Positions 8,430 to 38,946 of a stretch of DNA of 64,000 nt are shown piece by piece. Under the pieces are notes generated by a model. The model made no database searches and had not been told where the DNA came from. It worked only from the letters and a program-made list of their open reading frames with translations. The position numbers and the translations under genes are program-made. Every line of letters starts with the position of its first letter. The stretch's first letter is position 1. Source of the stretch: Lamellibrachia columna (lineage: Eukaryota > Annelida > Polychaeta > Sabellida > Siboglinidae); the NCBI GenBank assembly GCA_963662155.1, contig OY759265.1, positions 14,295,761 to 14,359,760 on the forward strand, read 5' to 3'.

Positions 8430-8435
8430 GATGAC
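8430..8435 (+). other. Target-site duplication, left (GATGAC)
   Basis: This six-base direct repeat directly abuts the first base of the left TIR (AGTAGTTATC). The matching copy is at 26304-26309. Six-base duplications are the known hallmark of Polinton integrases. Confidence 0.95.
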
Positions 8436-8665
8436 AGTAGTTATCAGAGGTTTTTGGGACCCCTTATCAAGAGCATCAAAAGATCAAAGGAAAACCACCC
8501 TAATATCGCCCACCGCTAATGAGTGCGCGCAGCCAATCAGAAAGCAGCACTAGACCTTGGAGCGCCCCCTGGCGGCGGCGGCGGCGGCTCAGCGTGGCGC
8601 GCATGCGCGTGGCGCGCATGCGCGTGCCGCGCCCCTAGCGACCGGAGGAGGAACGAACAGTGACC
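8436..8665 (+). repeat. Left terminal inverted repeat (230 bp)
   Basis: The repeat starts AGTAGTTATCAGAGG and ends at GAACAGTGACC. The right TIR, read in reverse complement, has the same sequence except that the left copy carries six GGC triplets instead of four. The left copy also carries 30 extra bases made of two copies of the 15-mer GGCGCGCATGCGCGT. These differences exactly explain the length gap (230 against 194 bp). In the family the TIR ends are the protein-primed replication origins and integrase substrates. Confidence 0.95.
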
Positions 8666-9437: not shown

Positions 9438-10754
9438 TCAGTAGTCGTAGATGACGTTGCGGTTCTTGTCGATTTCCAGCACGGACTCGAATTCGGCGTA
9501 GGCGACGACGTTCACGGTGGTCTGAAGCGCTGCACGGAAATGAAATTCTAAGCGCAGGTTGCCCTTTTGTACCATATTAAAGCAGGGACCGTCGCACTGG
9601 TCGGGGGTCAGGTCGAAACAGAAGTAGGTGTAGCCGTCTCGGTACTCTTCGCGTGTCAGACAGTTCCCCTCGTCCTGCCACACCTTGCCGGTCGAGGTGA
9701 ACATGCTCGCGTAGCTCCTGGCGAAGAGGTTGTCTGCGAAGTTGGGCTGGAAGGGTTTGGCGGGTATCTGACGACCGTCGACGTACACGGCGACGAAGCT
9801 GATGTCGTTGTTCTTGGCGTGAAACGGGTTTGTGGCGTACGTGCCGTTGTAGGCGTCGTTGTCGATGCAGCACAGTACGAGACGTTTCGGCAGGGAGCCG
9901 AGGAACAGGTTCTCGTGCGTGTGCGACAGAGCACCCGTGGGAATGGAGTACACCTTGGTTTCGACGGGTCGTAACGAATACTTGACCGTGGTCCGAGCGA
10001 GAGCCAAGATGTGAGCCTTCTGCACGGTCGGAGCGATGGTGGCCTTCTTGACGAACAAGGACGCGTTGACGACGGTTATCAAGTACTCGTTCGCTCCAGC
10101 AGCCATCAGCGCAAACTCGGGCTTACTGCGCACCAGGCGTAACTTGACGTCGACGCCGTTGATCAGGAATTTATCCTGCAGAAACATATCCACGTGGAGA
10201 CGACCTATCATGTCGACCACGCGACTGTTGGATATGTACTCTCGACGAGTCACGAACCCGGGGTTAGGATCGGGTCCGGCGGCTAGCTCGGTGGCGTGCA
10301 TGCGACTGGCCTTGTCCTTGTACCACAGCTGATTCGTCATCTGCGTCGACTTGGCGTCGGATCCGTAACTCAACAGCGTCTCTATGAAGGCTCGATACGG
10401 GTACGCGTTGAAGGACGAAGAGGTCACTTGCGTGTTGTTCAGGGAGAGGTCGACATTGCTGAACAGCGCATGCAACCAGTTGTTCACCGGTCCCACGGGT
10501 TCGTCCGCGTCGATAGGGTTACCGTTGGCTCGCGTCACCTTCACCTGCAAGTGTAGCATCGTGTTGGCGAGATCCATGTAATCGTCTCCCGATCCGGGGA
10601 TGAAGAATTCTATCGGTCCTCCAGAGTCCAGAGAGGCCGTGGGTTGATGTTCCACCACGTGACTCTCGACGATGCAGGTCTGAGTGGGGGGTACGGTAAA
10701 GAGATCCAGCTCGGTCTTGACTCCCTCGCACGACTGTCTATGCACGAACGCCAT
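9438..10754 (-). CDS. MCP: Major capsid protein, double jelly-roll (438 aa)
   Basis: This is the predicted hexon-like capsid shell protein of the Polinton virion. The 438-residue length, the N-terminal stretch PTASLDSGGPIEFFIPGSGD, the NTQVTSSSFNAYPYRAFIETLL region and the C-terminal FNMVQKGNLRLEFHF.AAL are family-typical. Database relatives are often labelled F54H12.2-like (from memory). The protein has no membrane segment or signal peptide. Its ATG lies within the end of the basic pX-like ORF, overlapping it by 17 bases in another frame. The protease follows after one base. Position among penton, pX-like and protease genes matches a virion morphogenesis block. Confidence 0.93.
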   Translation of the reverse strand: MAFVHRQSCEGVKTELDLFTVPPTQTCIVESHVVEHQPTASLDSGGPIEFFIPGSGDDYMDLANTMLHLQVKVTRANGNPIDADEPVGPVNNWLHALFSNVDLSLNNTQVTSSSFNAYPYRAFIETLLSYGSDAKSTQMTNQLWYKDKASRMHATELAAGPDPNPGFVTRREYISNSRVVDMIGRLHVDMFLQDKFLINGVDVKLRLVRSKPEFALMAAGANEYLITVVNASLFVKKATIAPTVQKAHILALARTTVKYSLRPVETKVYSIPTGALSHTHENLFLGSLPKRLVLCCIDNDAYNGTYATNPFHAKNNDISFVAVYVDGRQIPAKPFQPNFADNLFARSYASMFTSTGKVWQDEGNCLTREEYRDGYTYFCFDLTPDQCDGPCFNMVQKGNLRLEFHFRAALQTTVNVVAYAEFESVLEIDKNRNVIYDY

Positions 10755-11142
10755 CTTTGTCGTCGGCGTCGAATATGTCGGCAGCGCGTTTCGGGGACGT
10801 CCTTTTCTTGCGGCGGCGCTTGACTGCAGTGAATGTCGCCTTTGCGGCCGTTCGTTTTATACGTTTACCAGGAGGGTCTCGAATACTGCCGATGGCGTCG
10901 GTGACGCGTCTTTTGGCAGCCGTTTTTATGTTCTGACCCGATAAGACGTCGCCGGCTATGCGAACGCCGGTCTTCAACGCTCCCCTGCCCAACGCCACGG
11001 CACCTCTCTTGATGAGCGGCATGGCGCTGCGCAACAGACTGCCGAACAGACTGCCCAGTCCGTGACCTCGCTGGTATTGCGCACCGGCGAAGTAGGGCAG
11101 CGCACCGCCAGCCTGGCGCGCGTAATAATCGTTGTAATTCAT
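10738..11142 (-). CDS. Basic pX/protein VI-like virion protein (134 aa)
   Basis: This small, very basic protein has a glycine-rich, amphipathic N-terminal half (RGHGLGSLFGSLLRSAMPLI, then KRGAVALGRGALKTGVRIAGDVLSG). A Lys/Arg-rich tail follows (KRIKRTAAKATFTAVKRRRKKR). This architecture is conserved in Polintons and adintoviruses and resembles adenovirus core/pX and membrane-active minor proteins, which are protease substrates. The Gly-rich segment near residues 25-30 is the likely cleavage area, but I see no exact adenain consensus. The start codon overlaps the penton stop by one base (TGATG). DNA packaging or endosome-disruption roles are inferred from analogy. Confidence 0.8.
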   Translation of the reverse strand: MNYNDYYARQAGGALPYFAGAQYQRGHGLGSLFGSLLRSAMPLIKRGAVALGRGALKTGVRIAGDVLSGQNIKTAAKRRVTDAIGSIRDPPGKRIKRTAAKATFTAVKRRRKKRTSPKRAADIFDADDKDGVRA

Positions 11143-11972
11143 CAGAACAGTCCGGGCTTGCGTCGACGAAAATGAAGCGTCACCGTCACTCTACCGTATT
11201 CGAATGGCACGCGTCGACCCATGTCGTTCCTTATATCCACCTCTATCGAGTCGAAGTTCGAACGCAACAGCGGTACGTAGTGCACGTTGGTGAAACGAGC
11301 GGACACCGTGTCGCCGTTACGTCCGCTGATCGGAACGGCGCGCAACAGAGGTGCGAGAGTGTCGCCCACATTACGCGGCTCCACGACGTCCGTGTAGATG
11401 TAGAGGGTGTCGAACCCCTGCGTCAGGTTCACCACATCGTCGGCCTCGATGTGGAAGGGGTACGACGAGTCGGGATGGCGGGTGTCGATGGGGAGGACGG
11501 GAGACGACACACCCGACTCCGCCGGGCTGGCTACGGGTCCGCGGAATCCCAACAAGGTCGCCACCGCGCTGTGGTACGGTATGGTGAACATGGTGTTCGC
11601 CGTCATGTGTAACGTCATTTTCTGAGTGACGGTACTATAACTGATCTGAGCCTGTGTCTCATACGTCCGCATATTGGACAGTCCCTTGTTGACGTGATAC
11701 AGCAACGTAAACGGATCGTCGTAATACCCACACGGCAACTTCGAATGTATGGACGAGTCCGTAGCATCGATCGTGTTGAGGAAGAACCAGACGTCGGTAT
11801 CCGTGACGTTGTACCAGGTGTGCGGATACTGGACCTCGGCCAACCCACACTCCCACTCGCCGGTAAGATCGATGCGTTGGGGCAAGGCCGTGACGTAATG
11901 GGTCAAGGTGTTGTCGGGGTGCATCTTCATGGAAGCGTTGCTAGGCAGCGTCATGTAGAAATCAGTCGCCAT
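11142..11972 (-). CDS. mCP: Minor capsid (penton-like) single jelly-roll protein (276 aa)
   Basis: This is the predicted pentameric vertex protein. The opening MATDFYMTLPSNASMKMHPD, followed by TLTHYVTALPQRIDLTGEWE and CGLAEVQYPHTWYNV, is the highly recognisable N-terminus of Polinton minor capsid proteins. Beta-rich sequence continues to the C-terminal YGRVTVTLHFRRR. Length matches the family. The first 11 bases of the gene overlap the end of the small membrane protein ORF. Its stop overlaps the start of the pX-like ORF. No separate TATA box is visible, so it is probably expressed from a shared message. Confidence 0.92.
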   Translation of the reverse strand: MATDFYMTLPSNASMKMHPDNTLTHYVTALPQRIDLTGEWECGLAEVQYPHTWYNVTDTDVWFFLNTIDATDSSIHSKLPCGYYDDPFTLLYHVNKGLSNMRTYETQAQISYSTVTQKMTLHMTANTMFTIPYHSAVATLLGFRGPVASPAESGVSSPVLPIDTRHPDSSYPFHIEADDVVNLTQGFDTLYIYTDVVEPRNVGDTLAPLLRAVPISGRNGDTVSARFTNVHYVPLLRSNFDSIEVDIRNDMGRRVPFEYGRVTVTLHFRRRKPGLF

Positions 11973-12297: not shown

Positions 12298-13365
12298 CTA
12301 GGCTTTATAGTTGACGAGTCCCTTGGCATCGATCCAGCTGTTGTAGTAGGAGCCATAGCCGAACCATTTCACCAAAGCTTCCTTACGTTTACCAACCGTA
12401 CGGCGTTTCAGTACCGCTTCAACACGGTACACTTTATCAAAGGGTACCGTCACCTTCTGCAGCTCCAGTTCGTAGAAGGTACCCTCCAGCACTTCGCCGA
12501 GATCGTCCCGCAAGCGATACACGGGTGGGTCGGAGGGGTGAACCTCGTGTACCGTGAACAACTCTTCGCTCCAGTTCGTCTCGTAGCCCTTTTCGAACGT
12601 GCGTTTGTACTTGCTGACACGCACGCGATCCGACACGTGCAACTTGGGCACGCCCTTACCGTCGTGACCGTACAGACGTTGCCACACCTCTTCTTGGTTC
12701 TGTGCATTCACCTGTGACGGAGCCATACCGATCATGCGGTGGCGGGCATTGTTATACGATCGCATCAAGTCCGGAAGGACGTCGACGTATCGCCACGTCT
12801 GGTGTTTCGTGAAGTAGCGCCACATGCGCGTCTTCAACGTTCGGTTGAACCGTTCCACGACGGCTGCCTTCGTCTCCGCGTTGTGCGTGTAGAAGTAATG
12901 GATGTCGTAACGCTTCAATAGCGCCTGAACGGATTTGTTCCGAAATTCTCTGCCTTGATCCGTCTGCAAGGTCAGGGGGCAAACGTCGACGAACTTGGAT
13001 TGCAGCGCTTTTACCAACGACGCCGCGGACTTGTTCTTCATGGGAACACACCAGGCCACTTTCGAGAAGACGTCGATCATCGTGAGGAGAAAGGCCATAC
13101 CGTCGTTGACGCGTTTGACCTTCGACATGTCCACGAGATCGGCCTGCCACTGCTGATGCATACCACCCACGATGACTTGTCGTCTCTTGAAATGACGTCT
13201 CGCTGGTTTGTGTAAGGTGTAGGCGTCCTGTGCCGACAACCATGCCTTGACGGTCTTCTGTGGCAGGCGCGTGACGCGTCGCAAGCCATCGACGCCGCCA
13301 TAACTGCCTACCTTCGTGGGATCGAAGTAGACCTCGCTCAAGGAGCGTTCTCCCCTCTGAGCCAT
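12298..13365 (-). CDS. INT: Retroviral-type DD35E integrase with chromodomain (355 aa)
   Basis: This enzyme inserts the element and makes the 6-bp duplication. Counting from the ATG at 13365, the catalytic triad is Asp76 (QADLVDM), Asp136 (LQTDQGREF) and Glu171 (AAVVERFNRTLK), a DD35E spacing. The N-terminal YFDP.KVGSYGG segment is typical of Polinton integrases. A C-terminal chromodomain (about residues 312-347, YRVEAVLKRR to YYNSWID) may guide targeting to modified chromatin. The frame is open upstream to 13566, but that extension has no ATG and is low in family similarity, so I place the start at the first ATG. No canonical HHCC finger is seen. Confidence 0.95.
   Translation of the reverse strand: MAQRGERSLSEVYFDPTKVGSYGGVDGLRRVTRLPQKTVKAWLSAQDAYTLHKPARRHFKRRQVIVGGMHQQWQADLVDMSKVKRVNDGMAFLLTMIDVFSKVAWCVPMKNKSAASLVKALQSKFVDVCPLTLQTDQGREFRNKSVQALLKRYDIHYFYTHNAETKAAVVERFNRTLKTRMWRYFTKHQTWRYVDVLPDLMRSYNNARHRMIGMAPSQVNAQNQEEVWQRLYGHDGKGVPKLHVSDRVRVSKYKRTFEKGYETNWSEELFTVHEVHPSDPPVYRLRDDLGEVLEGTFYELELQKVTVPFDKVYRVEAVLKRRTVGKRKEALVKWFGYGSYYNSWIDAKGLVNYKA
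12303..12310 (-). promoter_or_regulatory. TATA box (CTATAAAG) inside the integrase 3' end
   Basis: CTATAAAG on the minus strand lies within the last codons of the integrase gene. It is about 36 bases before the ATG of the 101-residue membrane protein, the right spacing for transcription to start just before that ATG. It probably drives the membrane protein-penton-pX-MCP-protease block. Confidence 0.6.
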
Positions 13366-13510
13366 CAAAAAAGGTGGAGGATCGATGTGTTGACGGGGGC
13401 GGTGACGTTGACTTCGGATTCCCACTGCTGACGAATGACGAGGAGCACGCCGACGTGTATTAGGACGCACACTATGACACCCACAATGACAGCGGTGGAA
13501 CAACAACGAT

Positions 13511-13645
13511 CTAGCGGAGTAACCATAGTCGGAATAACAGCTGTTGTAGAAGAATGTCGGCTGCAACGTCTCCCAGCACGGTAAGTCCTTCGAACAATAG
13601 CGCAGCGACGATGGATCGGTACGTGTCCTGTGGATCGATGAGCAT
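13511..13645 (-). CDS. Membrane micro-protein, paralogue 2 (44 aa)
   Basis: This short ORF starts at the ATG of MLIDPQDTYRSIVAALLFEG and continues as a hydrophobic helix (LTVLGDVAADILLQQLLF) to the stop. It is a tandem paralogue of the 75-residue neighbour just upstream. The shared pattern is ML.DPQD..YRSIV.A....GL, then a QQ.LF motif. It lacks the neighbour's Pro/Ser-rich tail. The sequences before both ATGs are also similar, including a TATA-like element, so gene and promoter were duplicated together. The product is probably a single-pass membrane protein. Function is unknown. Confidence 0.55.
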   Translation of the reverse strand: MLIDPQDTYRSIVAALLFEGLTVLGDVAADILLQQLLFRLWLLR

Positions 13646-15157: not shown

Positions 15158-15769
15158 TTACACGTACTGAACACCGTCGTCTGGAAATATGGCCGTACGC
15201 AGACGCATGTCCTCGGGCGTGTCCTGTTTGAGATCGACCAACAGATAACCGTACGGTACCGCCGTGGCGTCTTTAAACGCCGCTTGCACGAACTTGCCGC
15301 GTCCCGGATACATCTGCCGAGCCAAGGTCGCCATCTGCGATGAGTCACGTGGATTCTTGAACACCACCATGTACTGCGAATTCAGACTGATGGTGCGACT
15401 CTCCTTGTTTTTAGGGAACAGGTTCTGTACGAGATACAGCACGGACGTGTTCCTGTTGTGACTTTTTTTAGTGAACAAGGTCGTGACCCGTTCGTCCGTT
15501 TCTGCCATGAGATCGTCTATGACGATGAGGTTCCTCGTTGTCGGATCGAACATGGCCGCAGTCGGTAACCCTTCCTCGAATCGCACGTGACCCAATTCCG
15601 TCGTTGCGTAAGCCTCTTGCCATTCTCCGTAACACCACGTGATCTGCTGGGGCGGTGGATCGATCATCGCAGCGGCGTGACGCAACATACGCGTCACGAA
15701 AGTACTCTTGCCGCACCCCGTCGGTCCGGCGACGATGCACGTGAAGGGGTGTTTCCATCGCGCATCCAT
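15158..15769 (-). CDS. ATP: A32-like FtsK/HerA packaging ATPase (203 aa)
   Basis: This is the predicted motor that pumps the genome into capsids. It has a Walker A motif, GPTGCGKST (residues 15-23 from the chosen start), and a Walker B motif, LIVIDDLM. A downstream polar motif YLVQNLFPKNKESRTIS is typical of Polinton/virophage ATPases. The frame continues to an ATG at 15799. I prefer the ATG at 15769 (MDARWKHPFTCIVAGPTGCG) because family members start close to WKHPF. The TATA-like GTATAG on the polymerase stop codon would also place the transcript start after 15799. Confidence 0.93.
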   Translation of the reverse strand: MDARWKHPFTCIVAGPTGCGKSTFVTRMLRHAAAMIDPPPQQITWCYGEWQEAYATTELGHVRFEEGLPTAAMFDPTTRNLIVIDDLMAETDERVTTLFTKKSHNRNTSVLYLVQNLFPKNKESRTISLNSQYMVVFKNPRDSSQMATLARQMYPGRGKFVQAAFKDATAVPYGYLLVDLKQDTPEDMRLRTAIFPDDGVQYV

Positions 15770-15810
15770 GATTGCGTGTGCAACGAATGCAGCGTGCATC
15801 GCCTTTTCTA

Positions 15811-21677: not shown

Positions 21678-22478
21678 CTACCTAAGCGGTCGCGTTATTG
21701 CCCGCGGTTGACGGATGGCACATCGCACGTATCGCATTATGTGTTCTTGATACTCGGCGGAGAGTACCGTGCCGGCCAGTGCCCGACACACGTCGACCGT
21801 CACCTCTTCCACCGTGGCAGGGGCGGTTGTCCGCCACAATTTAGTAATCATACGTGCGAGGTGCAGTTGCATTTTGTGGAAACACACCTTGCCCGTCTTG
21901 TCCGCGTCTTCTTCTTCTTCGTCGTCGGCGTCGTCGTCGTCCTCTTCGTGGGCATGCGCCGTCGACGGCTGCGGCTCCGGCTCCGGCTTTGCGTGTGTGA
22001 TCGTACGTTGATCGGGGAGGTCCACCTGTTCGCCGTCGCGGGTCAATACGACGGTTTTATCAGGGAATACATAGAGGGTCGTCAGGGATGCGTCGTCGTC
22101 GTCGTCGTCGTCGTCCTGCTTGCGCTGGACGAGTGGTGGCGACGCGGGACTAAATTCGAAGTCCGCATCGTCGGCTTTCGCGGGCTCGGGGGATGAGGCA
22201 ATCGCATCCTCATCCTCACTGTAGTGATGGGGAGGGGTGTTTATAATGAACGCGTCTTCCACGGACTCAGACTCCGATTCGACGGTCCACGGTGGTAGCA
22301 ACTCCTCTTGGTTTGCCGGTGGCGAGTCGGCATTGGTCAGGGGTGGTGGTGGGTAGAACGAGGTTGTCATCGAGGATGTCTTCAGCCTCTTCGCCGCTTG
22401 TGTCACCTTATCCTCGGTGTCGTGGTACAGCGCCGCCAGGTCGCGTTTATACGCGTTCTGGAGTTGCTCCAGTCCCAT
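21678..22478 (-). CDS. Acidic, low-complexity ORF (266 aa), unknown
   Basis: Residues 1-35 are helical and mixed-charge (MGLEQLQNAYKRDLAALYHD). A long disordered Pro/Ser/acidic region follows, with Asp and Glu runs encoded by GAC/GAA microsatellites. A folded-looking C-terminus from about residue 198 (VCFHKMQLHLARMITKLWRT to YVRCAIRQPRA) completes the protein. It has no family I recognise. The ATG lies exactly after an acceptor-like TTCTGTTCAATAG, so the ORF may be either an independent cistron or a phase-0 3' exon. Strong acidity would suit a transcriptional activator or histone/DNA mimic, but this is speculation. Confidence 0.6.
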   Translation of the reverse strand: MGLEQLQNAYKRDLAALYHDTEDKVTQAAKRLKTSSMTTSFYPPPPLTNADSPPANQEELLPPWTVESESESVEDAFIINTPPHHYSEDEDAIASSPEPAKADDADFEFSPASPPLVQRKQDDDDDDDDASLTTLYVFPDKTVVLTRDGEQVDLPDQRTITHAKPEPEPQPSTAHAHEEDDDDADDEEEEDADKTGKVCFHKMQLHLARMITKLWRTTAPATVEEVTVDVCRALAGTVLSAEYQEHIMRYVRCAIRQPRAITRPLR

Positions 22479-22518
22479 CTATTGAACAGAACGCATCGGT
22501 TACATTACGTGGGTTATA

Positions 22519-23073
22519 TTATTCCGCGTCGCCCTGCATATCGTTATTGTCGTATGTTTCGTACATACTCTTTCTAACCAATTCGGTCACTCGGTTACGC
22601 CATTTCATGGTCCCGCACGTTGCGATGACATCTATAGATAGCCACCGCAAGACGTGCATGACCATGCTGGTCGATGGCACGTAACGATCCTTATCATCGT
22701 TTAGATTCATTATGCGTTCAACCTCGTCACTGGCATATCGCACACTGGCGGCCTCTAGCGCCTTATAGAATATGTTTTCATTGGTCATGGCTTCGGATCT
22801 ATCACGTAGCCTATCTAGACCGCTAACAGTAGCCTCCATATCATCGCTACTGCTAATGCTATAATGTGACGACGCACTGTTCTCCCCCTGGTCGTCATCT
22901 GATATTACAATCATTGGTGGCGGCGAACCGCTGTCCACCGAGGAGGAGAACAGTATTTCCGCGCTGTTAGCCTGTAACCATTGCATTACCTTAGCGCGTC
23001 CATCGCCGTCGATGATGTCATCGCCGCTTCCGGTTGCCACTGCCGTGGCTGCCGCAGCGACGATCGAGCCAGC
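22519..23073 (-). CDS. Acidic ORF/3' exon (about 184 codons), unknown
   Basis: The open frame lacks an ATG at its beginning: the first possible initiator is GTG at 23040, and the frame stays open to a splice acceptor CCGTTGACAG|GCT at 23074. I therefore treat it as an exon starting at 23073 in phase 0. The translation has an Ala/acidic N-terminus, WLQANSAEILFSSSVDSGSP, and a Ser/Asp-rich stretch (VISDDDQGENSASSHYSISS) that resembles SUMO-interacting/CK2-target motifs (IVISDDD). A helical C-terminal half follows (MVMHVLRWLSIDVIATCGTM). No known family. It lies 17 bases past the NADAR/OB stop. Confidence 0.5.
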   Translation of the reverse strand, partial: AGSIVAAAATAVATGSGDDIIDGDGRAKVMQWLQANSAEILFSSSVDSGSPPPMIVISDDDQGENSASSHYSISSSDDMEATVSGLDRLRDRSEAMTNENIFYKALEAASVRYASDEVERIMNLNDDKDRYVPSTSMVMHVLRWLSIDVIATCGTMKWRNRVTELVRKSMYETYDNNDMQGDAE

Positions 23074-23089
23074 CTGTCAACGGAATGGT

Positions 23090-24298
23090 TCACACTGTGA
23101 CTACTTCCATGTTGGCCACCGTGTAATTTACGTACGGTCCTGCCATACGTTTACGAATGGTCACCATGACTCGGGCCCCCCGCAGCATGTCCAGTGCTGC
23201 ATACCGCTCGGCATCTGACGTCATGTTTATGTAATCGTTCCCCGTGTATCCTAGCAACTGGACAGCCTTGTCATTAAATATGGTTCCCCACACTTCGCTG
23301 CCGATGGCGTCTTGTAGGAGGACACGCATGGCGAACCGATACACTACACCCCGCTGCCATCGATGAATGGGACACACATAGCCATTGTTTTCGGGAATGA
23401 CCCGTTTGTTGCACTGCTGACATGATGGATAAACGATATATTTCTCTTGAACGGCGATTTGTACTATGGTTAACGGTCGTCTTATTATATAGGTACCGTT
23501 ACCTACCTGCTTCTCGAGTTGGCTCAGAGTGGTCATCATCTCGGCGTCCTGGTCGCTGGTTGTCTTGGTGACGGTGGTGGCGGCCATTTCTACGTCTCTG
23601 CTGGTGCTGATCGTGAAGGGTTTCGAAGTCGTCTGTGAAGCGGAGAGCGGTTGTATGCCTCGATCACTCCGAGTCGGGCTTATATAGCCCTCTCCCCGAC
23701 TGTGGCGCGCTTTCTTATCGTCGCCCCTTGGTCGAGCGCGTGACGCCGATGCTGATGCTGCATGTCTGGTATCTGCGTCCGACCCTTGGTCGATCGCGTG
23801 ATGCGGCCGCTGGATGTCTGCAATCTGGCTGTACTCTGGCGTCTGATGTAATCGTATGGCCTCGCGTACTAGCATGGTTATATGACCTAGCATGTTCTGA
23901 CCGGCTTGACCACTGTATGTCAGTGCACCCCAGTATCCTTCCCGACTCTTGACCCATTCCTGCAACTGGGAATGCCCAGTGTCCAACAGTCGTTTACGTA
24001 GGGTTGAATCGCGATATTTAACGGTCACTAACCCATACATTATTGCATATCGTTGTCTCATCCATTCTGCGCGTAACATTTCCTTTTCTCGTATGCACTT
24101 GCTGAGCTGTTTCGCCTGTAGACCCGTGCGCGTGGCCCGCATCCTTTGCGCCGTCTGCATGTCGTCATGATGCATGCACTTCTGCCATTGATACGCGCTT
24201 TCGACACTGGTGAATTCTCTATTACAGGCGTGTATCCTGCAGGCGTAGAAATTGGACAGGAACTGTTTACCACCTTTAAACCGTATAGGTTGGTTCAT
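23090..24298 (-). CDS. NADAR (YbiA-like) domain fused to RPA70C-type zinc OB fold (402 aa)
   Basis: Residues 1-150 form a NADAR/YbiA domain, seen in FLSNFYAC, FTSVESAYQWQKC, RQRYAIMYGLVTVKYRD, LLDTG, YWG and QNMLGHITMLVREAIR. NADAR enzymes are N-glycosidases: YbiA acts on riboflavin precursors, and others remove ADP-ribose from guanine in DNA. A polar linker (about 151-260) leads to an OB fold like the C-terminal domain of replication protein A large subunit. It has a zinc site Cys293, Cys296, Cys309, His312 within YPSCQQCNKRV...CPIHRW, and a FAMRVLLQDAIGSEVWGTIF strand region. A strong donor (CAG|GTAGGT) after codon 264 could separate the two halves by splicing. Single-strand DNA binding fits protein-primed replication. 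The fusion and its role are inferred. Confidence 0.88.
   Translation of the reverse strand: MNQPIRFKGGKQFLSNFYACRIHACNREFTSVESAYQWQKCMHHDDMQTAQRMRATRTGLQAKQLSKCIREKEMLRAEWMRQRYAIMYGLVTVKYRDSTLRKRLLDTGHSQLQEWVKSREGYWGALTYSGQAGQNMLGHITMLVREAIRLHQTPEYSQIADIQRPHHAIDQGSDADTRHAASASASRARPRGDDKKARHSRGEGYISPTRSDRGIQPLSASQTTSKPFTISTSRDVEMAATTVTKTTSDQDAEMMTTLSQLEKQVGNGTYIIRRPLTIVQIAVQEKYIVYPSCQQCNKRVIPENNGYVCPIHRWQRGVVYRFAMRVLLQDAIGSEVWGTIFNDKAVQLLGYTGNDYINMTSDAERYAALDMLRGARVMVTIRKRMAGPYVNYTVANMEVVTV
23506..23514 (-). promoter_or_regulatory. Candidate 5' splice site AAGCAG|GTAGGT after NADAR linker
   Basis: CAG|GTAGGT, a strong donor, falls exactly between codon 264 (Gln of LEKQ) and the start of the OB fold, in phase 0. 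Acceptor-like sites with compatible phase lie downstream at about 23074, 22479, 21582, 21382, 21260 and 21099. Coordinates are good to about one base. Confidence 0.5.
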
Positions 24299-24584
24299 GG
24301 TGACTTTATGACGTTAACATGTACAGTTACTGTCTTAACTACGCGTCGTTCTAGCACTGTAGAGTACGTAACCCCCGCTTTTTTCCTTGCGTGATGGATG
24401 CCCGGTGTCGGTAAGCTGACAGTTGCCGGCCGCTTATCTGTTTTCTGATTAGTGTGGTATTGTTCCGAGGCTGACGTAAGTTCTAGCATGCTCTATATAA
24501 GACGTCTGGGTTCGTCGTGTCGTCATAACAACCGCCATTGCCGTCGACACCGTTAGTGGTTCTTCGATTCCACACACACGCACA
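24299..24584. promoter_or_regulatory. Divergent promoter between NADAR and the plus-strand spliced gene
   Basis: This 286-bp intergenic region contains ATF/CREB-type sites TGACGTTA (24309-24316) and TGACGTAA (24472-24479). A plus-strand TATA box (CTATATAA, 24493-24500) lies about 85 bases before the plus-strand ATG. The diverged second element at 38361-38642 keeps both ATF sites, a TATA box and long identical stretches such as the CTTGCGTGATGGATGCCCGG region. ATF sites are typical of adenovirus early promoters, so this looks like an early bidirectional control region. I see no clear TATA for the NADAR direction. Confidence 0.7.
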
Positions 24585-26109: not shown

Positions 26110-26303
26110 GGTCACTGTTCGTTCCTCCTCCGGTCGCTAGGGGCGCGGCACGCTGAGCCGCCGCCGCCAGGGGGCGCTCCAAGGTCTAGTGCTGCTTTCT
26201 GATTGGCTGCGCGCACTCATTAGCGGTGGGCGATATTAGGGTGGTTTTCCTTTGATCTTTTGATGCTCTTGATAAGGGGTCCCAAAAACCTCTGATAACT
26301 ACT
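26110..26303 (-). repeat. Right terminal inverted repeat (194 bp)
   Basis: It ends ...CCTCTGATAACTACT at 26303. Its reverse complement equals the left TIR except for two fewer GGC triplets and absence of the doubled 15-mer. Near identity of the two ends indicates recent replication or insertion. Confidence 0.95.
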
Positions 26304-26309
26304 GATGAC
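26304..26309 (+). other. Target-site duplication, right (GATGAC)
   Basis: This is the second copy of the six-base target, followed by ACAGCTTCTAAC exactly as in the empty site at 4268-4285. Confidence 0.95.
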
Positions 26310-28454
26310 ACAGCTTCTAACTACTTGACGAGACAGTCCCTGGCTGCTTGATGACACAGCCCCTGACTGCTTCATGACAGTCTCTTCAGACATGTCTGTT
26401 GGATTAGGCAGAACTGTCTCAACATGTCCTGATCTGACGCCTGAGCTGCTCGGTAACACTCATGTGACTGTCCACGTCACTGTCCCATCGTGGACATGGA
26501 CTGTCTCACTGAAGAATCTTATCCTTCTAGATTCTCATTGCTGCCTCCAAGTAGTTGTTGATGTTATTTCCCGACACAGGCATTGTGCCGTGATAGTATG
26601 CCTCTGTAATCATACACGGCAGTGACGTGTTCTGAGAAATGTGGATATTGTTTCACCTTTGCATCTGCACACAGGCCCACATAACGACCTCAAACCTCCT
26701 GTGTCCTGTTGCATATCTCCTCTTTCAAGCACTCCACTTTAAAATGGGCCTCGGAAACAATCTTGCGATTGAAGTTGAATTTGTCTTTGGTCGTATCCTC
26801 TGCGCAAGCACCATACACCTTGTCAGTCTGCGGGGTAATACTACTTGTCTTGGGCGCAGCTGTTTGCGCAGAGAAATAATGCAGTGCACTCTGGTTCCTC
26901 TTCCTGTGGTTCATTGAATTGTAACATTTATTTTAATAAATTTATTCTAATAAATGTATTCAAACACTGCATCACATATCATACAGACATACACACAGTG
27001 ACCTGTCATTGAATTGGGGATACAGCTTTAAGGTTGACTTTGTGTGTAACAGAAGTATTGCTGGAAAACATCCTAGGACTCGAAGAGGTCTATGGAACCG
27101 CGAACGAGCGCAAAGAAGATGTAGCTGCCATTTGTGTCAGAACAGACTGAAACAATATAGCAAATCGTGGCTGTAGAAATATCGTCCGCCCGTTTGTTGT
27201 CGCCAGTTCGAAGAGGCCTGTCAATTAAAGCAGTTAGTGCGATGTCTGTCAAGTAAGACATTATGTGTGTGCGTGTCAGCCACGGACAACAATGTCGTCA
27301 CGACGAAAAGCCTCATTCATGGTGGCAGTGAGGTTCGACTCTTTCAGGTTACCACCGCTGCATACGTAAACAAACATGCACGTTTCTGACATGATGCAAA
27401 AATGCATAGACACGACCAGTCGTGCAGATCGGTAGGTGGAGCTGACGATCAGTGGAATTCGTCAACGGCCATTTGACCGAGCTAACTGGTTGTTGAGAAA
27501 GTAGTCGCATAGCTTACACAATTCAGAGGGCGTCGCCAGCGTGCTGTCGGATTCAGCAACAATGTCAGAACTAACCTTCACATCAATGAAGATGTCGCTG
27601 GGCCTTCTAACTTCTTGTACATTCCACTTATTCATAGCCGGTGTATATGCTTTCAAGTTATCGCGTCAAGCTAAACCCTTGCCCATGTTACACAAACATG
27701 AGGAAATTGTGGTAGCAACAAGTCACTAAAACGCTGGAGTGGCTGAACTGTCAAAGCCTTTGTGGTTCTTGGTTTCCAGTTTATTTAACTCCTCCGCTGT
27801 GGTAACCGTTTCGGCCACTTCGAACACTGAAGTCGCCCTCCCTCAATGCAGCGCATGGTACAAGCCTTCAGAGGCGTTATGTCACCACCATGTTGTAGTA
27901 AGCCCCAATCACCAGGTTAAAGGAGTTAAAGGCACCACTCTAATCTGACATCACCACTTGGCTGTGATGGTAGTGCAGGCCTTCGAAAGCGTTCCGTCCA
28001 CACCACTTTGTAATAATCCCCAATCGCCAGCTTAATTGAACTAAAGGCGCCACACTACTCTGACATGACGACATGATTCCTGTCGGCTAACTGGTGCACA
28101 AGTTACATTGGTTCCATCTGAAATTGAGTACTGGTGAATGTCTTATTACTAAGTTGCTTAATTTATTTATTAACACACATGATGTGGTTATATTTATTGA
28201 ACATTAATATATACGAAACATGTACAATATCGTATGTTTCAAGATGACCCATAACATTCAAATGTGTGAAATACAACTCGTATATATCGAGTTATTAAAA
28301 TTTCATGCAACATACATCTCATTTTTATCCCATAGTTTGGAAAATAAAAACAAGTGAAGGTCCGACAAAAATCCCATTAGTAGAAAAATAAAATGTCTGT
28401 CATTTAAAACCAAAAAACCCGTTATGATAAAAAACACTGCAACAACTGGACAAC
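26310..28454. repeat. Right part of the interrupted host macro-repeat
   Basis: Positions 26304-28024 match 4268-5988 at a constant offset of 22,036 bp, completing the unit cut at 8435. From about 28025 a third macro-unit starts and runs into the 0.9-kb array. The same short ORFs as on the left recur with only a few residue changes. No recognisable gene. Confidence 0.85.
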
Positions 28455-31400
28455 AGGTACCTGCAAAGGGTCTGACCCCACCATAATTAGCGTTTTGTGA
28501 AACGTGGGTCAATGACTTACACCAGTCACTGCAAAGCTGGCAAAGAGCCAATTGTGGAACCAAGAGAAGAGTCTGTCACAAGGGCACTCAGGTTGATGTT
28601 ATGAAAACTGGAATGTAACAACAACACTGCGACTCGCAGTGTTGATGCGCAAAAACCCGGATTGCCTGCATAAATAATGGCTACTCTTACTACATTGTAA
28701 CTCAGAAATCTCACATTACCATCAGCCTTTCGCCAGTGTCACTGATATTACAATTAATACTACTTTCTCACTATCGAAACTATAGTGCAAAACCTTTAGT
28801 GTTAATACAATATTATATAAAATACTTACTCGTCATATTTTAAGTTTGTGAATTACTGGTCATGTGGCTTGCACAGCGGTCGCCCGTATACCCAAGGCGA
28901 CTTGAAATGCTGTCGGGTGAAAAATTTATTGAGGAAGATTTAAAAAGTAACATTTGAATGAAAGTACTCGGGCTAGGGAACATTCCTGTAGGCTAGTAGA
29001 TTTCATAATTTACCAGCCCGGCGGGCTAGTAGAATTTGTTTTATTTAGCAGCACTCCGAAATGTATTCATTCATCTCCATTTAAACCCTTGCTCTTTGAC
29101 ACTAACTACGTCAAGAGTTTGTGACGTACTGACTGTGTTCCTGTAAGTCTGTGGCCAACAAAGATATAGATTGCCCCACCCAGCACCATAACATGCTCAT
29201 AGAGTTCCTGTAGCAAAAAACTTTTGAGGACAGTTTTCCCAGTGTACAGCAAGAATGACCTCCATTCATGGCGTTCGCAAAGTTTCCATGATGATTTTTT
29301 TCTTATACGGGTCATCTGCCCTGTGCCTCACTATGAAGCACTCAGGTACCTGCAATGGGTCTGACCCAACCTTAATTAGCGTTTTGTGAAACGTGGGTCA
29401 ATGACTTCCATCAGTCACTGCAAATGTGTCAAAGAGCCAATTGTGGAACCAAGAGTAGAATCTGTCACAGGGGCACTCAGGTTGATGTTATGAAAACTGG
29501 AATGTAATAACAACATTGCGACTCGCAGTGTTGATGCGCAAAAACCCGGATTGCCTGCATAAATAATGGCTACTCTTACTACATTGTAACTCAGAAATCT
29601 CACATTACCATCAGCCTTTCGCCAGTGTCACTGATATTACAATTAATACTACTTTCTCACTATCGAAACTATAGTGCAAAACCTTTAGTGTTAATACAAT
29701 ATTATATAAAATACTTACTCGTCATTATTTAAGTTTGTGAATTACTGGTCATGTGGCTTGCACAGCGGTCGCCCGTTCACCCAAGGCGACTTGAAATGCT
29801 GTCGGGTGAAAAATTTATTGAGGAAGATTTAAAAAGTAACATTTGAATGAAAGTACTCGGGCTAGTGAACATTCCTGCGGGCTAGTAGATTTCATAATTC
29901 ACCAGCCCGGCGGGCTAGTAGAATTTGTTTTATTTAGCAGCACTGCGAAATTTATTCATTCATCTCCATTTAACCCCTTGCTCTTTGACACTAACTACGT
30001 CAAGAGTTTGTGACGTACTGACTGTGTTCCTGTAAGTCTGTGGCCAACAAAGATATAGATTGCCCCACCCAGCACCATAACATGCTCATAGAGTTCCTGT
30101 AGCAAAAAACTTTTGAGGACAGTTTTCCCAGTGTACAGCAAGAATGACCTCCATTCATGGCGTTCGCAAAGTTTCCATGATGATTTTTTTCTTATACGGG
30201 TCATCTGCCCTGTGCCTCACTATGAAGCACTCAGGTACCTGCAATGGGTCTGACCCAACCTTAATTAGCGTTTTGTGAAACGTGGGTCAATGACTTCCAT
30301 CAGTCACTGCAAATGTGTCAAAGAGCCAATTGTGGAACCAAGAGTAGAATCTGTCACAGGGGCACTCAGGTTGATGTTATGAAAACTGGAATGTAACAAC
30401 AACATTGCGACTCGCAGTGTTGATGCGCAAAAACCCGGATTGCCTGCATAAACAATGGCTACTCTTACTACATTGTAACTCAGAAATCTCACATTACCAT
30501 CAGCCTTTCGCCAGTGTCACTGATATTACAATTAATACTACTTTCTCACTATCGAAACTATAGTGCAAAACCTTTAGTGTTAATACAATATCATATAAAA
30601 TACTTACTCGTCATATTTTAAGTTTGAATTACTGGTCATGTGGCTTGCACAGCGGTCGCCCGTTCACCCAAGGCGACTTGAAATGCTGTCTGGTGAAAAA
30701 TTTATTGAGGAAGATTTAAAAAGTAACATTTGAATGAAAGTACTCGGGCTAGTGAACATTCTTGCGGGCTAGTAGATTTCATAATTCCCCAGCCCGGCGG
30801 GCTAGTAGAATTTGTTTTATTTAGCAGCACTGCGAAATTTATTTATTCATCTCCATTTAACCCCTTGCTCTTTGACACTAACTACGTCAAGAGTTTGTGA
30901 CGTACTGACTGTGTTCCTGTAAGTCTGTGGCCAACAAACATATAGATTGCCCCACCCAGCACCATAACATGCTCATAGAGTTCCTGTAGCAAAATACTTT
31001 TGAGGACAGTTTTCCCAGTGTACAGCAAGAATGACCTCCATTCGTGGCGTTCGCAAAGTTTCCATGATGATTTTTTTCTTATACGGGTCATCTGCCCTGT
31101 GCCTCACTATGAAGCACTCAGGTACCTGCAATGGGTCTGACCCAACCTTAATTAGCGTTTTGTGAAACGTGGGTCAATGACTTACACCAGTCACTGCAAA
31201 GCTGGCAAAGAGCCAATTGTGGAACCAAGAGAAGAGTCTGTCACAAGGGCACTCAGGTTGATGTTATGAAAACTGGAATGTAACAACAACACTGCGACTC
31301 GCAGTGTTGATGCGCAAAAACCCGGATTGCCTGCATAAATAATGGCTACTCTTACTACATTGTAACTCAGAAATCTCACTTTAACATCAGCCTTTCGCCA

Positions 31401-34400
31401 GTGTCACGGATATTACAATTAATACTACTTTCTCACTATCGAAACTATAGTGCAAAACCTTTAGTGTTAATACAATATTAAATAAAATACTTACTCGTCA
31501 TATTTTAAGTTTGTGAATTACTGGTCATGTGGCTTGCACAGCGGTCGCCCGTTCACCCAAGGCGACTTGAAATGCTGTCGGGTGAAACATGTATTGAGGA
31601 AGATTTAAAAAGTAACATTTGAATGAAAGTACTCGGGCTAGTGAACATTCCTGCGGGCTAGTAGATTTCATAATTCACCAGCCCGGCGGGCTAATAGAAT
31701 TTGTTTTATTTAGCAGCACTGCGAAATGTATTCATTCATCTCCATTTAACCCCTTGCTCTTTGACACTAACTACGTCAAGAGTTTGTGACGTACTGACTG
31801 TGTTCCTGTAAGTCTGTGGCCAACAAAGATATAGATTGCCCCACCCAGCACCATAACATGCTCATAGAGTTCCTGTAGCAAAATACTTTTGAGGACAGTT
31901 TTCCCAGTGTACAGCAAGAATGACCTCCATTCATGGCGTTCGCAAAGTTTCCATGATGATTTTTTTTTCTTATACGGGTCATCTGCCCTGTGCCTCATTA
32001 TGAAGCACTCAGCACTCAGGTACCTGCAATGGGTCTGACCCCACCATAATTAGCGTTTTGTGAAACGTGGGTCAATGACCTACACCAGTCACTGCAAAGC
32101 TGGCAAAGAGCCAATTGTGGAACCAAGAGAAGAGTCTGTTACAAGGGCACTCAGGTTGATGTTATGAAAACTGGAATGTAACAACAACACTGCGACTCGC
32201 AGTGTTGATGCGCAATAACCCGGATTGCCTGCATAAATAATGGCTACTCTTACCACATTGTAACTCAGAAATCTCACATTAACATCAGCCTTTCGCCAGT
32301 GTCACGGATATTACAATTAATACTACTTTCTCACTATCGAAACTATAGTGCAAAACCTTTAGTGTTAATACAATATTATATAAAATACTTACTCGTCATA
32401 TTTTAAGTTTGTGAATTACTTGTCATATGGCTTGCACAGCGGTCGCCCGTTCACCCAAGGCGACTTGAAATGCTGTCGGGTGAAACATTTATTGAGGAAG
32501 ATTTAAAAAGTAACATTTGAATGAAAGTACTCGGGCTAGTGAACATTCCTGCGGGCTAGTAGATTTCATAATTCACCAGCCCGGCGGGCTAGTAGAATTT
32601 GTTTTATTTAGCAGCACTGCGAAATGTATTCATTCATCTCCATTTAAACACTTGCTCTTTGACACTAACTACGTCAAGAGTTTGTGACGTACTGACTGTG
32701 TTCCTGTAAGTCTGTGGCCAACAAAGATATAGATTGCCCCACCCAGCACCATAACATGCTCATAGAGTTCCTGTAGCAAAATACTTTTGAGGACAGTTTT
32801 CCCAGTGTACAGCAAGAATGACCTCCATTCATGGCGTTCGCAAAGTTTCCATGATGATTTTTTTTCTTATACGGGTCATCTGCCCTGTGCCTCACTATGA
32901 AGCACTCAGGTACCTGCAATGGGTCTGACCCAACCTTAATTAGCGTTTTGTGAAACGTGGGTCAATGACTTCCATCAGTCACTGCAAATGTGTCAAAGAG
33001 CCAATTGTGGAACCAAGAGTAGAATCTGTCACAGGGGCACTCAGGTTGATGTTATGAAAACTGGAATGTAACAACAACATTGCGACTCGCAGTGTTGATG
33101 CGCAAAAACCCGGATTGCCTGCATAAATAATGGCTACTCTTACTACATTGTAACTCAGAAATCTCACATTACCATCAGCCTTTCGCCAGTGTCACTGATA
33201 TTACAATTAATACTACTTTCTCACTATCGAAACTATAGTGCAAAACCTTTAGTGTTAATACAATATCATATAAAATACTTACTCGTCATATTTTAAGTTT
33301 GTGAATTACTGGTCATGTGGCTTGCACAGCGGTCGCCCGTTCACCCAAGGCGACTTGAAATGCTGTCGGGTGAAACATTTATTGAGGAAGATTTAAAAAG
33401 TAACATTTGAATGAAAGTACTCGGGCTAGTGAACATTCCTGCGGGCTAGTAGATTTCATAATTCACCAGCCCGGCGGGCTAATAGAATTTGTTTTATTTA
33501 GCAGCACTGCGAAATGTATTCATTCATCTCCATTTAACCCCTTGCTCTTTGACACTAACTACGTCAAGAGTTTGTGACGTACTGACTGTGTTCCTGTAAG
33601 TCTGTGGCCAACAAAGATATAGATTGCCCCACCCAGCACCATAACATGCTCATAGAGTTCCTGTAGCAAAATACTTTTGATGACAGTTTTCCCAGTGTAC
33701 AGCAAGAATGACCTCCATTCATGGCGTTCGCAAAGTTTCCATGATGAATTTTTTTTCTTATACGGGTCATCTGCCCTGTGCCTCATTATGAAGCACTCAG
33801 CACTCAGGTACCTGCAATGGGTCTGACCCCACCATAATTAGCGTTTTGTGAAACGTGGGTCAATGACTTACACCAGTCACTGCAAAGCTGGCAAAGAGCC
33901 AATTGTGGAACCAAGAGAAGAGTCTGTCACAAGGGCACTCAGGTTGATGTTATGAAAACTGGAATGTAACAACAACACTGCGACTCGCAGTGTTGATGCG
34001 CAAAAACCGGGATTGCCTGCATAAATAATGGCTACTCTTACTACATTGTAACTCAGAAATCTCACATTACCATCAGCCTTTCGCCAGTGTCACTGATATT
34101 ACAATTAATACTACTTTCTCACTATCGAAGCTATAGTGCAAAACCTTTAGTGTTAATACAATATTATATAAAATACTTACTCGTCATATTTTAAGTTTGT
34201 GAATTACTGGTCATGTGGCTTGCACAGTGGTCGCCCGTTCACCCAAGGCGACTTGAAATGCTGTCGGGTGAAACATTTATTGAGGAAGATTTAAAAAGTA
34301 ACATTTGAATGAAAGTACTCGGGCTAGTGAACATTCCTGCGGGCTAGTAGATTTCATAATTCACCAGCCCGGCGGGCTAGTAGAATTTGTTTTATTTAGC

Positions 34401-36502
34401 AGCACTGCGAAATGTATTCATTCATCTCCATTTAAACCCTTGCTCTTTGACACTAACTACGTCAAGAGTTTGTGACGTACTGACTGTGTTCCTGTAAGTC
34501 TGTGGCCAACAAAGATATAGATTGCCCCACCCAGCACCATAACATGCTCATAGAGTTCCTGTAGCAAAATACTTTTGAGGACAGTTTTCCCAGTGTACAG
34601 CAAGAATGACCTCCATTCATGGCGTTCGCAAAGTTTCCATGATGATTTTTTTATTATACGGGTCATCTGCCCTGTGCCTCACTATGAAGCACTCAGGTAC
34701 CTGCAATGGGTCTGACCCAACCTTAATTAGCGTTTTGTGAAACGTGGGTCAATGACTTCCATCAGTCACTGCAAATGTGTCAAAGAGCCAATTGTGGAAC
34801 CAAGAGTAGAATCTGTCACAGGGGCACTCAGGTTGATGTTATGAAAACTGGAATGTAACAACAACATTGCGACTCGCAGTGTTTATGCGCAAAAACCCGG
34901 ATTGCCTGCATAAATAATGGCTACTCTTACTACATTGTAACTCAGAAATCTCACATTACCATCAGCCTTTCGCCAGTGTCACTGATATTACAATTAATAC
35001 TACTTTCTCACTATCGAAACTATAGTGCAAAACCTTTAGTGTTAATACAATATTATATAAAATACTTACTCGTCATATTTTAAGTTTGTGAATTACTGGT
35101 CATGTGGCTTGCACAGCGGTCGCCCGTTCACCCAAGGCGACTTGAAATGCTGTCGGGTGAAAAATTTATTGAGGAAGATTTAAAAAGTAACATTTGAATG
35201 AAAGTACTCGGGCTAGTGAACATTCCTGCGGGCTAGTAGATTTCATAATTCACCAGCCCGGCGGGCTAGTAGAATTTGTTTTATTTAGCAGCACTGCGAA
35301 ATTTATTCATTCATCTCCATTTAACCCCTTGCTCTTTGACACTAACTACGTCAAGAGTTTGTGACGTACTGACTGTGTTCCTGTAAGTCTGGCCAACAAA
35401 GATATAGATTGCCCCACCCAGCACCATAACATGCTCATAGAGTTCCTGTAGCAAAATACTTTTGAGGACAGTTTTCCCAGTGTACAGCAAGAATGACCTC
35501 CATTCATGGCGTTCGCAAAGTTTCCATGATGATTTTTTTTCTTATACGGGTCATCTGCCCTGTGCCTCATTATGAAGCACTCAGCACTCAGGTACCTGCA
35601 ATGGGTCTGACCCCACCATAATTAGCGTTTTGTGAAACGTGGGTCAATGACTTAACCAGTCACTGCAAAGCTGGCAAAGAGCCAATTGTGGAACCAAGAG
35701 AAGAGTCTGTCACAAGGGCACTCAGGTTGATGTTATGAAAACTGGAATGTAACAACAACACTGCGACTCGCAGTGTTGATGCGCAAAAACCCGGATTGCC
35801 TGCATAAATAATGGCTACTCTTACTACATTGTAATTCAGAAATCTCACATTAACATCAGCCTTTCGCCAGTGTCACGGGTATTACAACTAATACTACTTT
35901 CTCACTATCGAAACTATAGTGCAAAACCCTTATTGTTAATACAATATTAAATAAAATACTTACTCGTCATATTTTAAGTTTGTGAATTACTGGTCATGTG
36001 GCTTGCACAGCGGTCGCCCGTTCACCCAAGGCGACTTGAAATGCTGTCGGGTGAAACATTTATTGAGGAAGATTTAAAAAGTAACATTTGAATGAAAGTA
36101 CTCGGGCTAGTGAACATTCCTGCGGGCTAGTAGATTTCATAATTCACCAGCCCGGCGAGCTAGTAGAATTTGTTTTATTTAGCAGCACTGCGAAATGTAT
36201 TCATTCATCTCCATTTAAACCCTTGCTCTTTGACACTAACTACGTCAAGAGTTTGTGACGTACTGACTGTGTTCCTGTAAGTCTGTGGCCAACAAAGATA
36301 TAGATTGCCCCACCCAGCACCATAACATGCTCATAGAGCTCCTGTAGCAAAAAACTTTTGAGGACAGTTTTCCCAGTGTACAGCAAGAATGACCTCCATT
36401 CATGGCGTTCGCAAAGTTTCCATGATGATTTTTTTCTTATACGGATCATCTGCCCTGTGCCTCACTATGAAGCACTCGGGTACCTGCAATGGGTCTGACC
36501 CA
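28455..36502. repeat. Tandem array of about nine 0.89-kb host units
   Basis: The landmark TGATGTTATGAAAACTGG recurs at intervals of about 889, 889, 888, 898, 890, 898, 889 and 894 bases. Two unit types can be told apart. B units carry CTTACACCAGTCACTGCAAA and GAAGAGTCTGTCACA; A units carry CTTCCATCAGTCACTGC and GTAGAATCTGTCACA. Order is B A A B B A B A B, giving a dimer of about 1.78 kb in the right half. The fourth unit has an A-type left part and a B-type right part. Two minus-strand frames of 62-75 codons recur in most units, but I recognise no protein. Each unit also carries a short CTAGCCCGCCGGGCT-like palindrome. Right boundary is the second Polinton end. Confidence 0.9.
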
Positions 36503-36720
36503 AGTAGTAAGTGGAGGTTTCTGAGTACGTAATGCGCCCGCAGTCACGTGACAAACATCAAAGGAAAAACACCCTAATATCGCCCACCGCTTCTGAGTGC
36601 GCGCAGCCAATCAGAGCGCATCAGAGCGCCCCCTGCCGGTTGTAGCCGAGCGTGCGTAACCTAAGCGCCCCCTAGCGACTGGAGGAGGAACGAAAGATAA
36701 CCAGGAATCATCGATAGTGG
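36503..36720 (+). repeat. TIR of the truncated element
   Basis: It shares with the complete element the AGTAGT start, the segment AACACCCTAATATCGCCCAC, GAGTGCGCGCAGCCAATCAG and the final CTAGCGAC.GGAGGAGGAACG. The outermost 70 bases have diverged, and the CGG/GCGCATGCGC block is missing. The preceding six bases (GACCCA) would be the target duplication, but the partner end is lost. Confidence 0.75.
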
Positions 36721-38642: not shown

Positions 38643-38946
38643 ATGAATCGTCCGATACACTTCAGAAGCGGTAAAAATTACCTGTCCAATTTCTACGTGT
38701 GCAGGATACATGTGTGGAATAGAGAATTTACCACTGTTGAAAGTGCGTACCAGTGGCGTAAATGCATGCATCATGGTGACATGCAGACCGCAGAAAAAAT
38801 GCTGTCCACGCGCACGGGTCTACAGGCGAAACACCTCAGCAAGAGCATACGAGAAAAGGAGCAGTTACGCGCAGAATGGAATAAACAACGATATTCAGTA
38901 ATGTATGCGTTAGTTGCTGTTAAATATCGCGATCCAACCCTACGTG
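38643..38946 (+). pseudogene. NADAR N-terminal fragment (truncated)
   Basis: The frame opens with an intact ATG and NADAR motifs (YLSNFYVCRI, FTTVESAYQWRKC, AKHLSKSIREK, RYSVMYALVAVKYRD). It then leaves the family at about codon 101, exactly where the element breaks off. It runs on into unrelated host sequence to a stop at 39021-39023. The YWG and GxNxLG segments and the whole OB fold are missing, so an active glycosidase is unlikely. Confidence 0.85.

Follow-up and report, generated by a model that had tools for sequence, protein, structure and literature searches.

Here we describe a family of Polinton-like elements of the tubeworm Lamellibrachia columna in which a gene for a YbiA-type NADAR protein adjoins a gene for an RPA70C-like zinc-OB protein, and in one sublineage of which both are read in a single open frame. 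Judging from the copies compared, the fusion appears to be a young trait of that sublineage, and the conserved pair of NADAR and RPA70C-like genes in an animal Polinton-like family is a more solid novelty than the fusion itself. The explanation that we favour, and consider rather probable, is that two ancestrally separate genes are now joined, that they yield a fusion as well as a free OB protein, and that the NADAR part cleans ADP-ribose off the DNA of the element.

The window, by which we mean the whole stretch of 64,000 nucleotides under analysis, comes from an assembly of 880 Mb. On its minus strand it carries a single open frame of 402 codons that runs from an ATG at 24298 to a stop at 23090. 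As the first-pass annotation had proposed, this frame brings together a NADAR and an RPA70C-type domain, both above the Pfam cut-offs: NADAR (PF08719) at residues 11-149 (E 5.7e-17, 62.9 bits against a cut-off of 35.1) and Rep_fac-A_C (PF08646) at residues 282-367 (E 5.5e-13, 49.4 bits against 28.5). Profile searches of the PDB retrieved 8bau and YbiA (2b3w) for the NADAR part and, for the OB part, the RPA70 chains 6i52, 4gnx (unnamed protein), 1l1o, 9mj5 and 8rk2; a weak match of the OB part to adiponectin (E 0.0004) is put down to chance. Residues 3-155 also match the phage family phrog_1017, with a better E value (6.4e-31) than that of Pfam NADAR.

According to the accessible part of PMC11543638, the catalytic glutamate and lysine of NADAR proteins, together with the glutamate of the YbiA type, are E43, K50 and E125 in Phytophthora nicotianae. 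The counterparts in the window are E33, K40 and E114, the last of them mapped to E125 through the alignment to YbiA and the spacing, and not through an alignment to the P. nicotianae protein. These three residues line up also with YbiA and 8bau, are invariant among 23 aligned sequences, and are kept in 35, 34 and 35, respectively, of the 35 NADAR clusters taken as complete. In the OB part, the four zinc ligands picked out by the first-pass annotation (C293, C296, C309 and H312, in the numbering of the joined frame) are all present; in 23 aligned proteins three of them never vary and C309 is conserved to at least 90%, which points to the zinc-binding insert of the OB fold. A structure model of the joined protein is poor (pLDDT 48.7) and was read for secondary structure only; residues 32-150 are predicted to be mostly helical, but with a pLDDT of only 38-70 there.

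The frame belongs to an element of about 17.9 kb, for which the Polinton-like setting recognised earlier is supported: its edges are perfect terminal inverted repeats of 148 nt, and it encodes an rve integrase with a chromodomain, a packaging-ATPase-like ORF and a PolB-like ORF (Table 1). ATGA abuts both ends of the element, so that the direct repeat there is only 4 bp; the target-site duplication of Polintons/Mavericks measures 5-6 bp. The polymerase motifs of the 1508-aa ORF, which we take to be PolB-like, were judged by eye, and up to E 1 Pfam gave no polymerase for this ORF. Two further ORFs (9438-10754 and 11142-11972), in which a jelly-roll capsid protein was looked for, are without a Pfam or PHROG match. 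A 159-aa ORF at 8957-9436 (minus strand) matches Peptidase_C5, the adenovirus endoprotease, below the cut-off (E 0.047) and is plausibly the Polinton protease. The NADAR and RPA70C-like genes adjoin the right end of the element, on the minus strand, and two more ORFs, of 266 and 173 aa, lie between the OB gene and the polymerase (21678-23040, minus strand).

Table 1. Features of the window that bear on the NADAR and OB genes and on the elements around them.
Feature	Position	Strand	Remark
Left terminal inverted repeat	8435..8582	+	148 nt, 100%
Integrase (rve) with chromodomain	12298..13566	-	Pfam PF00665, E 9.5e-13
Packaging-ATPase-like ORF	15158..15799	-	Adeno_IVa2, 21.3 bits, just above the cut-off of 21
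PolB-like ORF, 1508 aa	15811..20337	-	Same element as the 402-codon frame
RPA70C-like OB gene, own ATG (GAAATGGCC), 165 aa	23090..23587	-	Pfam PF08646
Linker, residues 155-237	23588..23836	-	Aligned to six copies with separate genes; frames read in 40 copies
TATATAA, putative TATA box of the OB gene	23680..23686	-	99 nt before the OB ATG at 23587
NADAR domain, residues 1-154; catalytic-type E33, K40, E114	23837..24298	-	Pfam PF08719
TATATAG, putative NADAR promoter	24493..24499	-	201 nt before the NADAR ATG
Right terminal inverted repeat	26157..26304	-	148 nt, 100%
Truncated NADAR (residues 1-101) of a second, broken element	38643..38945	+	Opposite orientation

The right end of a second, broken element occupies 36553-38945 in the opposite orientation; it breaks off within NADAR, at codon 101, and is followed by other DNA. 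Its NADAR start, to which the first-pass annotation had appealed for the stability of the gene, is indeed preserved (74% identical over residues 1-101), but since the copy breaks off at that point it says nothing on the fusion. Between the two elements lies satellite-like DNA, a head-to-tail repeat of about 887-898 nt whose nine copies (28448-36282) are 97-100% identical over a 300-nt stretch; its relatives at the left of the window (278-7491) comprise more copies, at 73-97%. Furthermore, a short tandem repeat with a unit of about 50 nt, containing CTCAGCTGAGTACTCAACAGAGG, is found at 41000-41170.

The same genome offers many copies for comparison. A search with the whole protein gave at least 104 matches among those listed (103 of 1883 candidates were scored), a number far beyond chance. 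A search with the OB part only is blind to what lies upstream; here 150 of 1095 candidates were scored, and the 150 matches fall, by our count, into 106 close copies (96-100% identical) and 44 distant ones (77-84%). Open frames of 404 codons or more are listed for 96 of the 106 close copies. One of these carries a TGA within its OB part, which leaves 95 with an uninterrupted joined frame; the ten remaining close copies list 207-395 codons. By contrast, the OB open frames of all 44 distant copies span only 179-280 codons. DNA was read for 98 of the close copies, as 100 fused stretches in which L034 equals L070 and L030 equals L053 (each taken twice), and for 40 of the distant ones. The eight remaining close copies, the window included, all have an open frame of 407 codons, one with a TGA inside. 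With so many uninterrupted copies, an accident of assembly or of a single copy is ruled out as the origin of the joined frame. The mean pairwise divergence among 41 fused copies is 1.5%; they are therefore young, and intact frames are in part to be expected.

In all 40 distant copies read, NADAR lies upstream of OB and is ended by a stop codon, and none is fused. The NADAR stop precedes the OB gene's own ATG by 87-228 nt in 39 of them, and TATA[AT]A stands 82-96 nt before this ATG in each of the 39 separate copies in which it could be placed, the exception being L141, which was also excluded from the 38-copy spacer comparison given below. In four of the 40 (L120, L121, L122 and L129) NADAR is matched in two frames and looks broken, and the stop was read from the C-terminal NADAR piece. 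When the window is aligned with six of these copies, the sequence surrounding the TATA box proves homologous between the fused and separate layouts. Outside this genome, a scan with the OB alignment matched a single genome contig, L001 (JAESPD010000129.1), a piece of Polinton-like DNA that was binned with a bacterial symbiont of Lamellibrachia anaximandri but most probably stems from the tubeworm host. Its layout is that of the separate copies, with a C-terminal NADAR piece and a stop at 540, TATATAA at 808 and an ATG at 875 in another frame; it is also decayed, the remainder of NADAR being absent and the OB match (999-1325) out of frame with the ATG. The same contig holds a relative of the 173-aa ORF mentioned above (50% identity over 157 aa), an ORF with no accepted Pfam match.

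The counterpart of the linker in the separate-gene copies thus consists of the NADAR tail, a stop codon, a TATA box and the OB leader, and on this alignment what looks like a linker would be the OB gene's putative promoter and leader, read through in translation. TATATAA occurs just three times on the minus strand of the element, the one in the linker included, and of 5000 sequences drawn from a first-order Markov model of the linker 0.42% contain it. Of 41 fused copies, that of the window among them, 40 retain the motif, the exception having also a stop in NADAR, and all 41 retain the OB ATG; among 97 fused stretches, the internal TATATAA has undergone one substitution. Neither AATAAA nor ATTAAA is found in the linker. 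Moreover, the equivalent MA[AST] is the start of 31 of the 74 OB-only database clusters. Two clusters, P0005 and P0136, appear, through N-terminal back-reading, to take the TATA stretch in a different frame from P0002 and P0003, which fits a constraint on the DNA, not on the protein, in the separate-gene copies.

In the protein databases, a search with the whole protein returned six proteins: a single cluster that combines the two domains (P0001, 140 members), four clusters with the OB part only, and P0006, a gene model of Lamellibrachia satsuma that holds the C-terminal NADAR half. The latter looks like running from NADAR into the start of the OB gene; in our reading it is a database gene model that continues into the sequence of another gene. 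The search with NADAR alone gave 137 proteins (120 listed) and that with OB alone 75; by its length limits the NADAR search was unable to list 402-aa proteins, whereas the whole-protein search was able to and listed only P0001. Altogether, the 197 clusters retrieved comprise at least 121 with NADAR alone, 74 with OB alone, one with both (P0001) and one without a class (P0196). Among those listed, the NADAR-alone clusters include 37 complete ones with 445 member sequences, and many others are fragments. Twenty contig sizes are common to the NADAR and OB tables, against 0.004 expected by jittering; from these shared sizes, it is probable that one contig often carries separate NADAR and OB frames. 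Midpoint rooting of a tree of 40 NADAR sequences places the fused pair at a tip, beside the standalone P0008 and P0010 (support 0.825 and 0.965).

These data modify the earlier interpretation in several respects. That NADAR is a stable gene of this lineage is borne out, both by the 37 complete standalone clusters and by the window's two NADAR copies, which over 101 codons show a dN of 0.138 against a dS of 0.476. No such support is found for the fusion itself as a stable unit: a stop and a TATA box separate the two parts in 39 of the 40 distant copies, and the fused NADARs are a tip of the tree. The claim narrows, as far as the compared sequences indicate, from a stable fusion to two stable genes that lie side by side and appear to have become joined recently. 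Nor does the argument from the CARP-type guanine-ADP-ribosylating proteins of molluscs carry over, as the only relatives with a named host come from tubeworms (annelids) of the genus Lamellibrachia. No relative was found in viral contigs scanned with the whole protein, the OB alignment and the NADAR alignment.

Whether the joined frame is maintained by selection was approached through the variation among copies. In 97 fused stretches (95 distinct copies, the rearranged L054, L058 and L059 being left out) the linker shows 51 distinct substitutions, no indels and no stops, against 69 substitutions and 20 indels, 17 of them frame-shifting, in the homologous spacer of 38 separate copies, a contrast in indels that depends on the deeper comparisons among the latter. 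Indeed, the spacer of nine very close separate copies, with 14 substitutions, is likewise without indels. Two of the three rearranged fused copies carry a 1-nt deletion in the linker, alike in both and probably a single event. The fused copies' own leader has 66 substitutions and 16 indels, 14 of them frame-shifting, five of which lie outside two indel-rich spots in a list read by eye.

The ratio pN/pS is 0.48 in NADAR, 0.50 in the linker and 0.15 in the OB part, while the N-terminal extension of the OB gene, at 1.37, shows no constraint. When the observed changes were placed at random within base and CpG context, the nonsynonymous deficit of the linker in the joined frame had P = 0.052 (0.93 and 0.78 in the other frames), that of NADAR P = 0.023, and that of the OB part was reached in 0 of 5000 permutations. 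If the linker is split at the TATA box, the part before the box has no deficit (P = 0.47) and the part after it a weak one (P = 0.045); the linker's lack of stops has P = 0.07. Distinct substitutions per nucleotide amount to 0.205 in the linker, as compared with 0.152 in NADAR and 0.096 in OB. Altogether, these counts are only suggestive of selection keeping the joined linker.

The favoured explanation starts from what the sequences show. In the more distant copies a YbiA-type NADAR gene adjoins an RPA70C-like zinc-OB gene as a separate unit, with a putative TATA box before OB, and in the sublineage of the window no stop closes the NADAR frame, which runs through the OB TATA box and leader into OB. 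With the intervening stop lost, long transcripts from the putative NADAR promoter (TATATAG, 24499) should encode a NADAR-linker-OB fusion, and the kept internal TATA box and ATG would allow the free OB protein still to be made. By what is known of the two families, the OB protein would coat the single-stranded DNA that arises in protein-primed replication and NADAR would strip ADP-ribose off the guanines of the element DNA; in the fused sublineage, NADAR would be tethered to single-stranded DNA.

Against this, the joined frame could be incidental, with a separate NADAR made from short transcripts, an OB protein that owes its expression to the internal promoter, and a fusion product that either does not exist or arises without any function, a possibility to be taken seriously even if we find it somewhat doubtful. 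It would agree with the two-gene layout of the distant copies, with the retention of the internal TATA box and ATG in the fused ones and with their youth, as well as with a linker that is more densely polymorphic than either domain and whose nonsynonymous deficit is not significant at 0.05 and is absent upstream of the TATA box. Nevertheless, a linker free of AATAAA and ATTAAA offers no evident end for a NADAR transcript before the OB frame, no stop codon ends translation between the two parts, and the linker of the 97 fused stretches has none of the frame-shifting indels that the 38 spacers have gathered.

Doubtful, too, is that NADAR acts on something other than the DNA of the element, on ADP-ribosylated RNA or reactive riboflavin intermediates, say, and that its neighbour is unrelated to its role. 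The accessible parts of PMC11125620 and PMC11543638 tie NADARs to riboflavin intermediates and to nematode trans-splicing, an RNA-processing role is hypothesised for retrotransposon NADARs in that of PMC12477816, and the host genome yielded no DarT. However, the bacterial, phage and oomycete NADARs tested hydrolyse guanine-ADP-ribose in DNA, again on the accessible text of PMC11125620 and PMC11543638, and in the copies read here the neighbour is a domain of the type that binds single-stranded DNA.

A further-reaching version of the favoured explanation, which we regard as unlikely, is that the sublineage has gained a new two-domain enzyme beside the free OB protein, selected for cleaning guanine ADP-ribosylation off replicating single strands. 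If it were true, a mobile element would have gained its two-domain enzyme through the translation of a promoter sequence; guanine ADP-ribosylation would then, should the cleaning reading hold, be damage or a host attack there. Finally, a functional NADAR-RPA70C fusion of long standing and characteristic of such elements, as originally proposed, is highly improbable, for although the frame is uninterrupted in 95 of the 106 close copies, P0001 has 140 members and P0006 runs from NADAR to an apparent OB start, none of the 40 distant copies is fused, all 44 distant OB frames are short, the fused NADARs branch as a tip within the standalone ones, and P0006 is in our reading a gene model that continues into yet another gene.

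Returning to the explanation of two ancestrally separate genes now joined, a conserved NADAR with catalytic-type residues beside a gene of the single-stranded-DNA-binding type, in an amplified animal Polinton-like family, suggests that these elements meet ADP-ribosylated DNA. Moreover, about a hundred joined and dozens of separate copies in one genome constitute a natural experiment on two genes becoming one, in which a route of gene joining, the loss of a stop codon and the translation of a promoter, is open to study.

Guanine ADP-ribosylation of DNA is described, in the accessible part of PMC11125620, for bacterial toxin systems and for animal toxins of the pierisin type, while what NADARs do in animals is left open there. 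With the YbiA type of the NADAR superfamily (Escherichia coli YbiA, the Phytophthora nicotianae protein and the DarT1-associated members), the protein of the window shares PF08719, E33/K40, E114 and the conserved N135 and G138. Unlike them, it sits in a Polinton-like element beside a gene of the single-stranded-DNA-binding type, is joined to an OB domain in the sublineage of the window, and has no DarT partner that could be found: DarT, one kind of ADP-ribosyltransferase that modifies DNA, had no match in the 17 ORFs of the window scanned with Pfam or in the host genome (PF14487), and a DarT-NADAR toxin-antitoxin system is rejected on these searches.

With DNA-binding domain C of RPA70 (PF08646), the OB part shares, by its sequence, an OB domain with an inserted zinc site. 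It differs in standing alone, with 165 aa and none of the other domains of RPA70, and in a zinc site of the form C-x2-C...C-x2-H, where that of RPA70 consists of four cysteines. In RPA70, a C-terminal trimerisation helix of domain C binds RPA32; here, little of the frame is left beyond the OB match.

As for the Polintons/Mavericks (adintovirus-like), the element of the window has in common with them the terminal inverted repeats, the integrase with chromodomain, the packaging-ATPase-like ORF and the large PolB-like ORF, and adds to these the NADAR and RPA70C-like genes beside its right end. In the literature searched, which mostly excludes subscription papers, no Polinton turned up that has NADAR next to an RPA70C-like gene, nor did a paper that pairs NADAR with a Polinton or an adintovirus with an annelid. 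The accessible text of PMC11071308 contains no NADAR, RPA or SSB term, and the "replication protein a" in that of PMC12220804 is a mere overlap of words.

NADAR domains are reported, in the accessible parts of the respective papers, from the Pol of an Ectocarpus Gypsy element and from ORF1 of a Crassostrea gigas Tx1 LINE (PMC12477816), and from RNA viruses (PMC11287256). The retrotransposons are likewise mobile elements that took up a YbiA-type NADAR, but they are RNA-based, and the accessible text mentions no single-stranded-DNA-binding gene in them (PMC12477816), whereas the element of the window replicates as DNA. In the case of Bam35, B35SSB is likewise a single-stranded-DNA-binding protein encoded by a protein-primed element; according to the part of the source available, its relatives form an atypical group among the SSBs that bacterial viruses encode (PMC8276246), while the tubeworm element encodes an RPA70C-like zinc-OB domain.
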